Source of the DNA: a bacterium
Lineage (GTDB): Bacteria; Blakebacterota; Blakebacteria; Blakebacterales; Blakebacteraceae
Length of the DNA: 10,848 nt
NCBI GenBank assembly: GCA_025774615.1
Contig: JALGVQ010000091.1
Span: 1 to 10,848, forward strand
Reading direction: 5' to 3'
Part shown: piece by piece, positions 3,929 to 8,884 of the stretch
Layout: each line of letters begins with the position of its first letter
Position numbering within the stretch: position 1 is the first letter of the stretch
Made by a program: the position numbers and the translations under genes
Notes under the pieces: generated by a model
The model's database searches: none
The model's input: the letters and a program-made list of their open reading frames with translations, nothing else
Told to the model about the DNA's origin: nothing

Positions 3929-6835
3929 ATGAAGAGCAGAAACAGACGGACAACCAGTAGCGCGCTCATCCTGATGGCGACCAGCCTGATGGTGGTTGCC
4001 GGTGCCATGCCGGTGAAGGCACAGGGTGACATTTTCGGACGGAACAAGGTCCAGTATGACACGTTCAGCTGGAGGCTGCTGAACACCCCTCATTTCACGA
4101 TCCATTACTACGAGGGATCGGAGGACGCAGCCCGGGATGCCGCAAGGATCGCCGAGCGGGCGTACTCCTACATCAGCCAGATATTGCAGGTCACGCTTGA
4201 AGACAAGATCCCGGTACTGCTGTACGCCGATCACCAGGATTTCCGGCAGACGAACGCTGTCTCGGGGATCACCGAAGGTGTGCAGGGTGTTACGGAATCG
4301 TTCAAGCAGCGGATCGTTCTGCCGATCATGCCCACGATGGAGGACTACATCCACGTGTTCACCCATGAGCTGGTACATCGCTTCCAGCTTGAGATCATCG
4401 GAGCGGGCAACGCGCTGAATCCGATGCAGTGGATGCCCCCCCTCTGGATGATGGAGGGTATGGCCGAATATCTCACGAGCGGCATGGATCCGAACACCAT
4501 GATCTGGCTGCGCGATCTGGTACAGCGTGAGGAGTTCATCACGCTGGTCGAGTTCGAGACGATACAGGATCAGCGGGTCTACCGGCTCGGTCAGGGCCTA
4601 TACCATTTCCTCGGCACACGCTATGGCGTGGATTCAATCAGGCGACTCTTCAAGGAAACCGTACGCACGAGAAGCTGGCAGGAGGCTCTCAACCGGGTCT
4701 ACAGCAAGACGGCTAAAGAGGTCACCGAGGAGTGGCAGACATTTTTAAAAGCCGAGCACAGTGACATTGTAGCCGGTCAGGAGGATGCCGAATCCATCGC
4801 CACGCGGCTGATCGAACATGAAGGGGTGATGTATAACATCAATGTGACGCCCACGATCAGCCCCGATGGCAAGCGCATCGCGTATATCGCCAATGAGAAC
4901 ATGCGGGATGGGCTGTATGTCGCCAACTCCGAGACCGGCAAATCGAAGAAAACGCTGGCCTACGGCGGCAAGACGGGCTCGCTGGAGATGATCGATTTCT
5001 TCGAGTCCACCATGTCGTGGTCAGATGACGGAAATACCCTGGCGTTCGTCTCCAGCGGTGGAGCCGAGGATGTCATCCATCTACTCGACTCCTACACCGG
5101 CAAGACTGTGACGAAACTGCGATACGACGGGATGTCGATCGTCTCTGCCGCGCTCAGTCCCGATGGCACTCAGATCGCGTTCAGCGGGATGATGCATGGT
5201 CGGCGGGACCTCTATATTGCCGCGACAGATGGCAGCCCCCCCCGCCGCCTGACCAACGACATCCATGCCTATCTCCATCCGTCATGGTCTCCCGACGGAA
5301 CCACGATCGCGGTGGCAACCGACCGCGGGCGCCCGACCGATGTGGATAATCTCGATTTCAGGGGCTACCGGTTAGCGCTCATCGATCCCGAAACGGGTGA
5401 TATGGAGAGCCTGACCACCGGGGGGTACCATGATATCAATCCGGTCTGGAGTCCGGAGGGAGAGACGCTCGCCTTTGTCAGCGACCGTGCCGGCGTGCCG
5501 CAGATCTATCTCTACGACCTGGAGAACCGCTCGATCAGAAAAGCCACGAACCTGGTGACCGGGATCTCCGGTATCACCAACTCCTCACCAGCGATCTCCT
5601 GGTCACGCCAGACAGGACAGATGGCGTTCTCCAGCTATCGCGAGATGGGATGGGATATCTACACGATGCCCGATCCCCGTACCAATTCCGCGACGGAGGT
5701 GGATCAGACCGTCGAACCGGGAGCTGATACGTTCGAACCGCTCTGGGCCGGATATCATCTGGGCGATGAGTTCCTGTTCAGTGAGGGCGAATACTCCCCC
5801 AGGCTCCAGACAGATTATGTCTTCGGAGCGGGAGCGTATTCGAGCCAGGTCGGGGTCATGGGTGATGTGATGGTGGGCATGAGCGACATGCTGGGGAACC
5901 ATAATGTCATTGTGCAGCTGGGGCTGTACGGAGCCCTGAGCCGATCGAACCTGGTGGCGGCGTACATCAATATGACCCGGCGACTGAACTGGGGGGTCTC
6001 TATCTACCAGATGGCCACCGCTCTGGGAGGATTCTACGGATCGACACTTACCACGACTACGTATACGAGCCGGGTCTACCGGGGACTCTCTCTCGACGGG
6101 TACTACCCGCTGAACATATTCAACCGGCTTGAAGCAACAGTCGGGTACATCGGGGTGCAGGATGACATCGTGAGTACCGACTGGTACGGCCGCACCCAGG
6201 TGAACGAGAAACTCGGCAGGTACAAGTGGTTCCAGGTCGGCATGGGACACGTTCATGATTCCGCGGTCTACTTCTACCCTGGTCCCATTGGAGGCTCCCG
6301 GTCCCGGGTTTCCCTCTCCCAGACGATCGGTGATCTGGACGCAACCACGGTGTCACTCGATTTCCGCAAGTACATCACGCTCAACCATCGCGGCGCAATC
6401 GCCTTGCGAACGATGACCGGAAATATCTTCACCAAGGGAATCAACAATGTGCAGTATTTCCGGATTGGTGGTCCCCTCACTCTCCACGGAACCGGCTATG
6501 GGCAGCTGATCGGTACGAACCTCGCCGTGCAGAACGTGGAAATTCGCTATCCTCTGCTCCCCTTCCTGCCGATACAGTGGGACTTTCTCAGTGCGGCGCT
6601 CTTCGCCGATGTCGGAGCGGTCTGGGATAACGGTTCGGAGCCTCTCTGGGAAGATGTAGGTGCCGAATTCGACCGCAATGTCCTGCTGGAGAATACTGCG
6701 ATCGGAGCACTCGGCGGCGGTATCAGGGCGAACCTGGGCTGGCTGACGGTCTTTCTCGATTACTCCGTACCAACCAATTTCCAGGGGAACTTCGGTAAGG
6801 GGTTCCTGCAGTTCGCGATCGGCCAGATTTTCTAG
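3929..6835 (+). CDS. Zinc metalloprotease / TolB-like propeller / outer-membrane barrel fusion
   Basis: A 968-residue envelope protein with three modules. Residues 1-31 are a signal peptide (basic start, hydrophobic core, PVKA cut before Gln 32). Residues about 40-290 form a gluzincin peptidase of the MA type: HELVH at 146-150 gives two zinc ligands and the catalytic Glu 147, and E176 in WMMEGMAEY is the likely third ligand. Residues about 300-585 carry repeated WD40-like (PD40/TolB) blades, recognisable as SPDGKRIAYI, SDDGNTLAFV, SPDGTQIAFS, SPDGTTIAVA and SPEGETLAFV. Residues about 615-968 look like a beta-barrel of the BamA/TamA (surface antigen) type: LHGTGYGQLIGTNLAVQN, FADVGAVWD, and a final QFAIGQIF whose terminal Phe is a barrel-assembly signal. 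The barrel probably sits in the outer membrane with the protease and propeller tethered in the periplasm or exposed; the side is not determined. The ATG follows a modest AGAGG at nine bases. A strong terminator ends the unit. Substrate unknown. Proteins of this build occur in FCB-type lineages but are, to my knowledge, uncharacterised. Confidence 0.85.
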   Translation: MKSRNRRTTSSALILMATSLMVVAGAMPVKAQGDIFGRNKVQYDTFSWRLLNTPHFTIHYYEGSEDAARDAARIAERAYSYISQILQVTLEDKIPVLLYADHQDFRQTNAVSGITEGVQGVTESFKQRIVLPIMPTMEDYIHVFTHELVHRFQLEIIGAGNALNPMQWMPPLWMMEGMAEYLTSGMDPNTMIWLRDLVQREEFITLVEFETIQDQRVYRLGQGLYHFLGTRYGVDSIRRLFKETVRTRSWQEALNRVYSKTAKEVTEEWQTFLKAEHSDIVAGQEDAESIATRLIEHEGVMYNINVTPTISPDGKRIAYIANENMRDGLYVANSETGKSKKTLAYGGKTGSLEMIDFFESTMSWSDDGNTLAFVSSGGAEDVIHLLDSYTGKTVTKLRYDGMSIVSAALSPDGTQIAFSGMMHGRRDLYIAATDGSPPRRLTNDIHAYLHPSWSPDGTTIAVATDRGRPTDVDNLDFRGYRLALIDPETGDMESLTTGGYHDINPVWSPEGETLAFVSDRAGVPQIYLYDLENRSIRKATNLVTGISGITNSSPAISWSRQTGQMAFSSYREMGWDIYTMPDPRTNSATEVDQTVEPGADTFEPLWAGYHLGDEFLFSEGEYSPRLQTDYVFGAGAYSSQVGVMGDVMVGMSDMLGNHNVIVQLGLYGALSRSNLVAAYINMTRRLNWGVSIYQMATALGGFYGSTLTTTTYTSRVYRGLSLDGYYPLNIFNRLEATVGYIGVQDDIVSTDWYGRTQVNEKLGRYKWFQVGMGHVHDSAVYFYPGPIGGSRSRVSLSQTIGDLDATTVSLDFRKYITLNHRGAIALRTMTGNIFTKGINNVQYFRIGGPLTLHGTGYGQLIGTNLAVQNVEIRYPLLPFLPIQWDFLSAALFADVGAVWDNGSEPLWEDVGAEFDRNVLLENTAIGALGGGIRANLGWLTVFLDYSVPTNFQGNFGKGFLQFAIGQIF

Positions 6836-6955: not shown

Positions 6956-8884
6956 ATGGCAAATACTCCTATTCGTAACTCGCAGCCCTCCAAAGGGTTA
7001 CTCGGACGGATGCTGGGCCTCGGGAAAGATCCCCGCTCAGCAGAGCCTCTGATTGTTCCCAGAGCGGAACACAATATCAGTCGGAAGAACATGGAGGAAG
7101 AAGTCCTCAAGGTTCTCTACCGCCTGAGAAACTCAAGTCAAATGGCCTATCTGGTTGGTGGAGCGGTGCGCGACCTGCTTCTCGGTCGTAAACCGAAGGA
7201 CTACGATGTCGCCACCGATGCCCGTCCTGACCAGATCCGCAAACTCTTCGTGAACAGCAGACTCATCGGTCGCCGGTTCCGACTTGCCCATATCGTCTTC
7301 AAGGGAGGAAAGGTGGTCGAGCTCTCCACCTTTCGAAAGAGCCCCGCGCTGCCTGAAGAGGGTGAAGATGGTGAGAACGGTGAGGAGCGTGACCTCATCA
7401 TCCGGGAAGACAATACCTGGGGAACGCCCCAGCAGGACGCCTACCGACGAGACTTCACGATCAATGCTCTCTTCTACAATATCGCTGACTTTTCGGTTAT
7501 CGACTACGTGGGCGGGCTTGCCGATCTGCAAGCCGGCATCATCCGGACCATAGGCGATCCCAACATCCGCTTCCGTGAAGATCCGGTGCGCATGATCCGC
7601 GCGGTGGAATATGCCGCTCGTCTCGATTTCGAGATGGTCCCTGAGGTTCTGAAAGGCATCCGCAAACACCGGAAAGATCTCAGGAAGGCCTCAGTCGCGC
7701 GTATCTCCGACGAGATGCTCAACCTCCTGAAAAGCGGCTCTGCCGAGAAGGCATTCCGCCAACTCCATGAAACCGGACTGCTTGAGATACTCCATGCCGA
7801 TCTTCACCGGGCGCTTGAAAAATCGCAGGACAACCAGCTCTTCAAGCAACTTGCGCTCATCGACGAGTGGGTGAGGAAGGGACGGAGAATCAGTGATACG
7901 GTACTGTTCGGAACCCTCTCTCTGACTCCTCTCTCCCAGGCCACAGCGGCCGCGGAAGAGCGCAAAGGTGGCCGACTCGCCAAGGGTGAGTATTTTACCC
8001 TCGTCGAAGATATGCTGAAGGAGACCGACGCGATCTTCCGGATCCCGGTCAGGCGACAGCATCAGTTGAAGGAGGCACACATGGGTGCCTACAAGATGCG
8101 TCGTGCTCCCTCGGGCCAGCGGGGTGAGCAGTCGATGGTCGGTCGCGGGTATTTCAAGGACGCGCTCGACCTCTTCACCCTGGAGGTCGAAGTCACCGGC
8201 AGTTACCAGAGTGTGCTGAAAGAGTGGCTGGACCTTAAAGGCAGCACTTCCGGTGGTGGACGCCGTCGGGACTCAGGGCAACGGAAAGAGACCTCCTCGA
8301 GGCAGGGGCGCGGGCAGAGGGATAGCCGGGACGGTGGAAAACAGGGTGATGAGGGCAGAGGGCGGCCGAGCAGGGAACGTTCAGAACGGAAAGAGCGGGA
8401 CGATCAGAAGAAACCGCAGCCTCAGCGCAAACCGGCCGACCGGCAGAAGCCGGAACAGGAACCGCGACAGAAAAAACCTGATGAGGTAACACCCGTCCAG
8501 ACGCCTCAACCTTCACCTCCTCCACCACCTCCTGCACCTCCTGCACCTCCGGTCGAACAGGAACCGGAGGCTCCTCGCATCGAGACGATCCCGCCGGAGG
8601 AATTCGAACATGGCAGGCATACCCGGAAGACACGTTACTGGAATGGTGTTGCCGGCCAGCAGAGCGCTCTTATCAAGGATATGAAGAAGAAGATCGAGAA
8701 CGGTGAGATGACTGTTCCCACTGATGATGAGATTCCCTGGTTCGTTCCCGGACAATCAGTGAAAGAGAACGGACCCTCCGGGGACGAGAGCGTGGACGGG
8801 GATGCAGAAAAGAGTGCCGGCGGGGATGATCCCGATGCTGGAAAGTGGGGCCGGACAAGGCGCGAGCGCCCACCGAAGCACTGA
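6956..8884 (+). CDS. pcnB: Poly(A) polymerase I-type nucleotidyltransferase with long disordered tail
   Basis: A 642-residue class II nucleotidyltransferase. Homology begins at PRAEHNISRKN (about 35-45), typical of PcnB. The catalytic head follows: YLVGGAVRDLLLGRKPKDYDV with metal-binding Asp 82 and Asp 84, GRRFRLAH (105-112), which favours poly(A) polymerase over CCA-adding enzyme, and RRDFTINAL (164-172). The RNA-binding helical part includes EDPVRMIRAVEYAARLDF (about 207-224). The enzyme adds A-tails to RNA 3' ends, which in bacteria promotes decay. E. coli PcnB has about 465 residues and a short basic tail; here roughly residues 430-642 are low-complexity: Gly/Arg/Glu/Lys-rich, then poly-Pro (PSPPPPPPAPPAPP), then a more ordered block TRYWNGVAGQQSALIKDMKK to DDEIPWFVPG, then an acidic end. 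No ribosome-binding site precedes the ATG; Met 19 (7010) is an alternative start. It follows a strong terminator and is convergent with pepA, the stop codons 20 bases apart. A CCA-adding role cannot be excluded. Confidence 0.85.
   Translation: MANTPIRNSQPSKGLLGRMLGLGKDPRSAEPLIVPRAEHNISRKNMEEEVLKVLYRLRNSSQMAYLVGGAVRDLLLGRKPKDYDVATDARPDQIRKLFVNSRLIGRRFRLAHIVFKGGKVVELSTFRKSPALPEEGEDGENGEERDLIIREDNTWGTPQQDAYRRDFTINALFYNIADFSVIDYVGGLADLQAGIIRTIGDPNIRFREDPVRMIRAVEYAARLDFEMVPEVLKGIRKHRKDLRKASVARISDEMLNLLKSGSAEKAFRQLHETGLLEILHADLHRALEKSQDNQLFKQLALIDEWVRKGRRISDTVLFGTLSLTPLSQATAAAEERKGGRLAKGEYFTLVEDMLKETDAIFRIPVRRQHQLKEAHMGAYKMRRAPSGQRGEQSMVGRGYFKDALDLFTLEVEVTGSYQSVLKEWLDLKGSTSGGGRRRDSGQRKETSSRQGRGQRDSRDGGKQGDEGRGRPSRERSERKERDDQKKPQPQRKPADRQKPEQEPRQKKPDEVTPVQTPQPSPPPPPPAPPAPPVEQEPEAPRIETIPPEEFEHGRHTRKTRYWNGVAGQQSALIKDMKKKIENGEMTVPTDDEIPWFVPGQSVKENGPSGDESVDGDAEKSAGGDDPDAGKWGRTRRERPPKH

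Follow-up and report, generated by a model that had tools for sequence, protein, structure and literature searches.

A predicted zinc peptidase joined in one chain to a TolB-like propeller and an Omp85-type outer-membrane barrel

One gene in the 10,848-nucleotide stretch of Blakebacterota DNA analysed here (the window) encodes a chain that runs from a metallopeptidase through a propeller to an outer-membrane barrel, raising the question of what such a fusion does in the cell envelope. The earlier note on this DNA saw either a self-anchored quality-control protease or a protein-processing or secretion device. We favour the first of these: a secreted zinc metalloendopeptidase whose own Omp85-type barrel anchors it on the inner side of the outer membrane, where it would process or clear envelope proteins. 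We assign this reading a probability of about 0.5. Sequence and structure prediction give good support to its modules, enzyme class and anchoring.

Architecture of the encoded protein

The gene lies on one contig of a draft genome (3.3 Mb, 82% complete), with these features:

3929–6835, plus strand: whole gene, 968 amino acids, comprising signal peptide, gluzincin peptidase, TolB-like propeller and Omp85 barrel
3929–4021, plus strand: signal peptide, residues 1–31 (sequence; helix 8–25 in the model)
4034–4057, plus strand: near-invariant FGRNKVQY motif at the mature N terminus, residues 36–43
4070–4798, plus strand: gluzincin domain (peptidase MA, M9-collagenase-like), residues 48–290 (model, profile and fold searches)
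4364–4378, plus strand: HELVH, residues 146–150, zinc-binding and catalytic motif
4454–4468, plus strand: EGMAE, residues 176–180, with third zinc ligand E176
4802–5701, plus strand: six-bladed TolB-type propeller, residues 292–591
5807–6832, plus strand: 16-stranded Omp85/BamA-type barrel, residues 627–968 (family models, structure model, fold search, BamA alignment)
6482–6490, plus strand: LHG, residues 852–854, at the Omp85 loop-6 (V/L)RG(F/Y) place, with Arg changed to His
6803–6832, plus strand: C-terminal strand FLQFAIGQIF, resembling a beta-signal (BamA ends in QFQFNIGKTW), with terminal Phe

Two patterns that leave out the zinc motif, FGxNKVQY and HxDFxQTN, were used to scan bacterial genomes. 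One scan yielded at least 575 relatives, of which 80 were kept; 79 were readable, and a 57-row alignment was drawn from them. AlphaFold2, supplied with the 57-row alignment, returned a model of the 968-residue protein (pLDDT 87.4, pTM 0.88) in which all three modules proposed in the earlier note appear in a single chain. The open reading frame encodes a real, widely conserved protein: the model, the many relatives and the conservation of the zinc motif in 57 of 57 aligned sequences rule out a chance motif or frame artefact, the motif being preserved although the search patterns came from other parts of the protein.

The signal peptide ends in a likely signal peptidase I site, VKA↓Q by our reading of the sequence, with no lipobox cysteine. 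Shortly after it, F36, G37, N39, K40, V41 and Y43 of FGRNKVQY are invariant in the 57 sequences aligned from among the matches listed. This motif is better conserved than most of the chain, yet the model leaves the first residues poorly ordered; it may form a self-binding or inhibitory segment.

The peptidase domain, modelled alone with pLDDT 88.9, bears the gluzincin (clan MA(E)) signature of HExxH and a conserved downstream Glu as third ligand. The complete HExxH and EGxAE motifs named in the earlier note are borne out, with E147 catalytic as it was numbered there. H146, E147, H150, E176 and G177 are invariant in the 57 aligned relatives, and HExxH is present in all 79 readable ones, in both cases among the matches listed. 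The nearest solved folds are M9 collagenases (8jt1, Z 18.5, rmsd 3.2 over 232 residues, 16% identity), followed by M30 and M1 peptidases, and a domain profile run against solved structures found Grimontia collagenase (E 3e-4). The Pfam M9 score falls short of its threshold (23.9 bits against a cut-off of 26), and Peptidase_MA_2 matches the 968-residue protein with E 2.6e-5, under its cut-off; across the 57 members, Pfam assigns BSP to 45, Peptidase_MA_2 to 28 and M9 to 16. Because fold and profile lie closest to the collagenases while the M9 score is under the cut-off, the domain is a gluzincin near M9 and not a member by score.

Where the earlier note counted five or more TolB-like blades, the model has six, each of four strands (residues 292–591; strands taken from the model and grouped into blades by hand). 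TolB (1crz) matches this fold with Z 25.9 and rmsd 2.5 over 243 residues, and PD40 matches five stretches (Pfam, E 8.8e-33). The NCBIfam TolB model gives E 4e-37, yet its 128 bits, set against an equivalog cut-off of 343, identify the propeller fold only.

A linker of only ~35 residues in the model connects propeller and barrel. Sixteen long strands between residues 627 and 965 close into a predicted barrel whose fold matches BamA and the mitochondrial SAM complex (Z ~24), a C-terminal barrel of the kind that marks the Omp85 superfamily. Omp85 (PF01103) matches residues 713–968 (E 1e-12), reaching the terminal Phe968 to which the earlier note had drawn attention, and the NCBIfam BamA model matches residues 634–968 (E 1e-7), below its curated cut-off. 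Pfam found neither a POTRA nor a patatin domain in the 968-residue protein, and in the model it is the propeller that stands before the barrel. The source genome holds eight Omp85 barrel matches, two of which (on contigs C84 and C11) carry POTRA domains; with such proteins present separately, the fusion need not be the genome's BamA.

The barrel also offers a guide to topology. A profile of the family's barrels aligns with E. coli BamA at E 1.4e-15 in a single-sequence hmmsearch with filters off, the default filters giving no match, and the alignment lays the family's VRGY on BamA's VRGF and brings both C termini together. The RG motif is found at or near the loop-6 place in 52 of the 57 relatives, and the loop carrying its position here (836–863) is the longest of the modelled barrel, lying between strands 11 and 12. 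Since loop 6 lies between the same strands in BamA, and strand number and alignment match, the N and C termini would by analogy face the periplasm. Many barrels of the family may be more than anchors, given that most relatives keep the RG motif. The Arg-to-His change is shared with the nearest relative (L004) but with almost none of the others.

Distribution and a homologue lacking the barrel

Contrary to the rarity implied by the earlier note, the family is large and spans many phyla. The matches listed (80 of at least 575) represent about ten by submitters' names: Gemmatimonadota, Acidobacteriota/Aminicenantes, Calditrichota, KSB1, Zixibacteria, Latescibacterota, Fermentibacteria, Rhodothermota, Bacteroidota and Neomarinimicrobiota. 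Among 145 sampled genomes, most of them from different families, a manual count gives 46 with a strong match (E < 1e-40) to this unnamed peptidase domain, roughly a third. Nearly all complete strong matches in that sample lie in frames of ~930–1200 residues, as the fusion would give, and several copies per genome are often found. The barrel is present in all 79 readable relatives among the matches listed and ends in an aromatic residue in 74 of the 75 complete ones. Neither an unclosed predicted barrel nor a general lack of zinc ligands among relatives, the two findings that the earlier note named as counting against it, was seen. The fusion is ancient and common. A protein unique to this contig is ruled out by the scan, the genome sample and a second copy in the same genome.

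A quick tree of 72 rows, weak in its deep forks, groups the protein with one from the same family, and two Calditrichota proteins join next (support 99). The second copy in the source genome (contig C177) branches elsewhere, together with proteins from KSB1 and others, and a third, more distant relative lies on contig C24. Directly 3' of the C177 paralogue is a 487-residue frame (L034:5227-6687) with its own HEFQH and EGLAE and no Pfam match.

Propeller–Omp85 proteins were described in 2014 (Heinz and Lithgow, PMC4104836) as the WD40-Omp85 subfamily of the Omp85/TpsB superfamily. The present protein has the feature that defines this subfamily, a TolB-like propeller N-terminal to an Omp85 barrel without POTRA; the main text of that paper differs in making no mention of a protease domain (PMC4104836). 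Judged by this main-text description, the subfamily and the present family are likely identical.

One homologue lacks the barrel. On Salinibacter ruber M1 plasmid pSR116 (L143:3917-5818), a 633-residue protein annotated 'basic secretory protein-like' has a signal peptide, YFGKNKAQY, HELVH, EGMAE, a propeller and an acidic tail, and matches the family profile over positions 6–595 (E 3e-250). No frame of the 9.6 kb examined there encodes a barrel, and the next gene is an S10 carboxypeptidase. This one case suggests that protease and propeller form a working unit and that the barrel is a separable anchor. Two other candidates for short forms were rejected: in genome G104 the barrel sits in an overlapping second frame, and in G081 the frame is short because the contig ends within it. 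In the G104 homologue (L144:567-3493) the reading frame changes within the propeller–barrel linker, through error or a real split.

Possible function

Consistent with the earlier note, we found no family member with an assigned function, nor a report of activity, substrate or localisation for any of them; proteolysis, substrate, location and role are inferred. On the favoured reading, the protein would be exported by Sec and its barrel inserted by the cell's BAM machinery, leaving protease and propeller in the periplasm beside the membrane. The propeller would dock a substrate or partner, and the zinc site would cut what is docked. Its most likely use would be the processing or clearing of outer-membrane or exported proteins, an outcome like that of BepA or DegP but self-anchored, with the barrel in this lineage serving mainly as anchor and platform, not as insertase. 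PlpD, whose enzyme domain is periplasmic on an Omp85 barrel, offers a precedent for a tethered periplasmic enzyme (PMC11116518), and BepA offers one for zinc proteolysis in outer-membrane assembly (PMC8423444).

The same parts could instead make up a factor for outer-membrane protein assembly and quality control, a one-chain equivalent of BamA (barrel), BamB or TolB (propeller) and BepA (protease); its seam would engage nascent barrels, and it would degrade stalled ones. The BamA-type barrel, the BamA-like beta-signal and the loop-6 motif of the relatives point this way, as does the fact that, before PlpD, every Omp85 member studied had a role in assembling or translocating proteins (PMC11116518). 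Heinz and Lithgow likened WD40-Omp85 proteins to a BamA–BamB fusion (PMC4104836, main text), and BepA, a BAM-associated zinc protease, handles immature LptD (PMC8423444). However, the protein lacks POTRA domains in a genome with separate POTRA-bearing Omp85 proteins, its VRGF-motif Arg is His, and a barrel-less homologue exists; we consider this reading rather doubtful. Alternatively, the barrel might deliver protease and propeller to the surface of the cell, there to serve nutrition or the breakdown of extracellular protein. The peptidase fold is closest to secreted collagenases, S8 or S10 peptidase genes lie near some relatives, and Omp85/TpsB relatives translocate proteins (PMC4104836, main text), but an analogous claim for PlpD was overturned (PMC11116518). 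Surface delivery is unlikely in our view, given the short propeller–barrel linker and a BamA-like topology that would keep the N terminus periplasmic. The secretion device of the earlier note loses ground likewise, because the loop-6 position between strands 11 and 12 would place the N-terminal modules in the periplasm and because a homologue dispenses with the barrel. Finally, other families contain inactive gluzincin folds, and no activity has been shown for any member of this one, so the fold might be kept for binding only, as a non-proteolytic scaffold. Invariant zinc ligands and catalytic Glu are not expected of a dead enzyme, and this reading seems very improbable.

A self-anchored envelope protease remains our favoured reading. 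In a bolder version, which we judge improbable, the family would be an outer-membrane quality-control machine made of one chain and widespread outside Proteobacteria: its propeller and barrel seam would capture envelope or barrel clients, and its own zinc protease would destroy or mature them. One protein would then do work that E. coli divides among BamA/BamB-associated factors and BepA or DegP. The family would reveal how the outer membrane is processed or policed in bacteria that lack the E. coli set of periplasmic proteases, and it would be a second example, PlpD being the first, of an enzyme borne by an Omp85 barrel. Catalytic Glu, propeller and barrel are separately testable.

Related systems and neighbouring genes

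Each module resembles a known protein and departs from it. E. coli BamA shares the 16-stranded barrel, the loop-6 position and the QFxIGxx-aromatic C terminus but has POTRA domains, an Arg in VRGF and neither protease nor propeller. E. coli TolB has the six-bladed propeller as a soluble partner of Pal, whereas here the propeller belongs to a membrane-anchored enzyme. The M9 collagenases (Grimontia, Vibrio, Clostridium) share HExxH and the downstream Glu, at low identity to a peptidase that here is anchored through propeller and barrel. PlpD has one POTRA domain, absent from the present protein, and BepA is soluble, has a TPR domain and not a propeller, and has BAM as its partner. PlpD of Pseudomonas aeruginosa likewise sets a hydrolase N-terminal to an Omp85 barrel, with the enzyme domain periplasmic (PMC11116518), but that hydrolase is a patatin-type lipase without a propeller. 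BepA, too, is a zinc metallopeptidase of the periplasm that works at the outer membrane (PMC8423444), though of another peptidase family, M48.

Among searchable texts on peptidase MA, propellers and the outer membrane, we found no paper describing this protein, and a paper on the Bacteroidota BAM does not mention propellers or peptidases. PF00149 is, we take it, a phosphoesterase family and not a protease family. The separate 'Metallo' ('metalloprotease') subfamily of Omp85 proteins, which rests on PF00149 (PMC4104836, main text), is therefore a different group. In those texts the protease on a propeller–Omp85 protein went unreported; the separate parts were already known.

The survey of neighbouring genes revealed no conserved partner across the family at the loci compared, and hence no pointer to a pathway. 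guaB3 and rpsT adjoin the gene within the genus, and pcnB and pepA only within the family. In one Gemmatimonadota group the gene lies beside rpsF/rplI/rsfS and SMC genes; in another it is convergent with mlaD and an ABC ATPase gene. Upstream in the window are frames at 280–957 (225 residues, apparent signal peptide) and 1087–1617 (176 residues), which match nothing in Pfam or NCBIfam and lack a counterpart at the other loci. Close behind the gene, at 6956–8884, lies a PcnB-type poly(A) polymerase with a long C-terminal extension rich in Arg, Lys and Pro, and in the related genome G002 the polymerase gene likewise follows closely.
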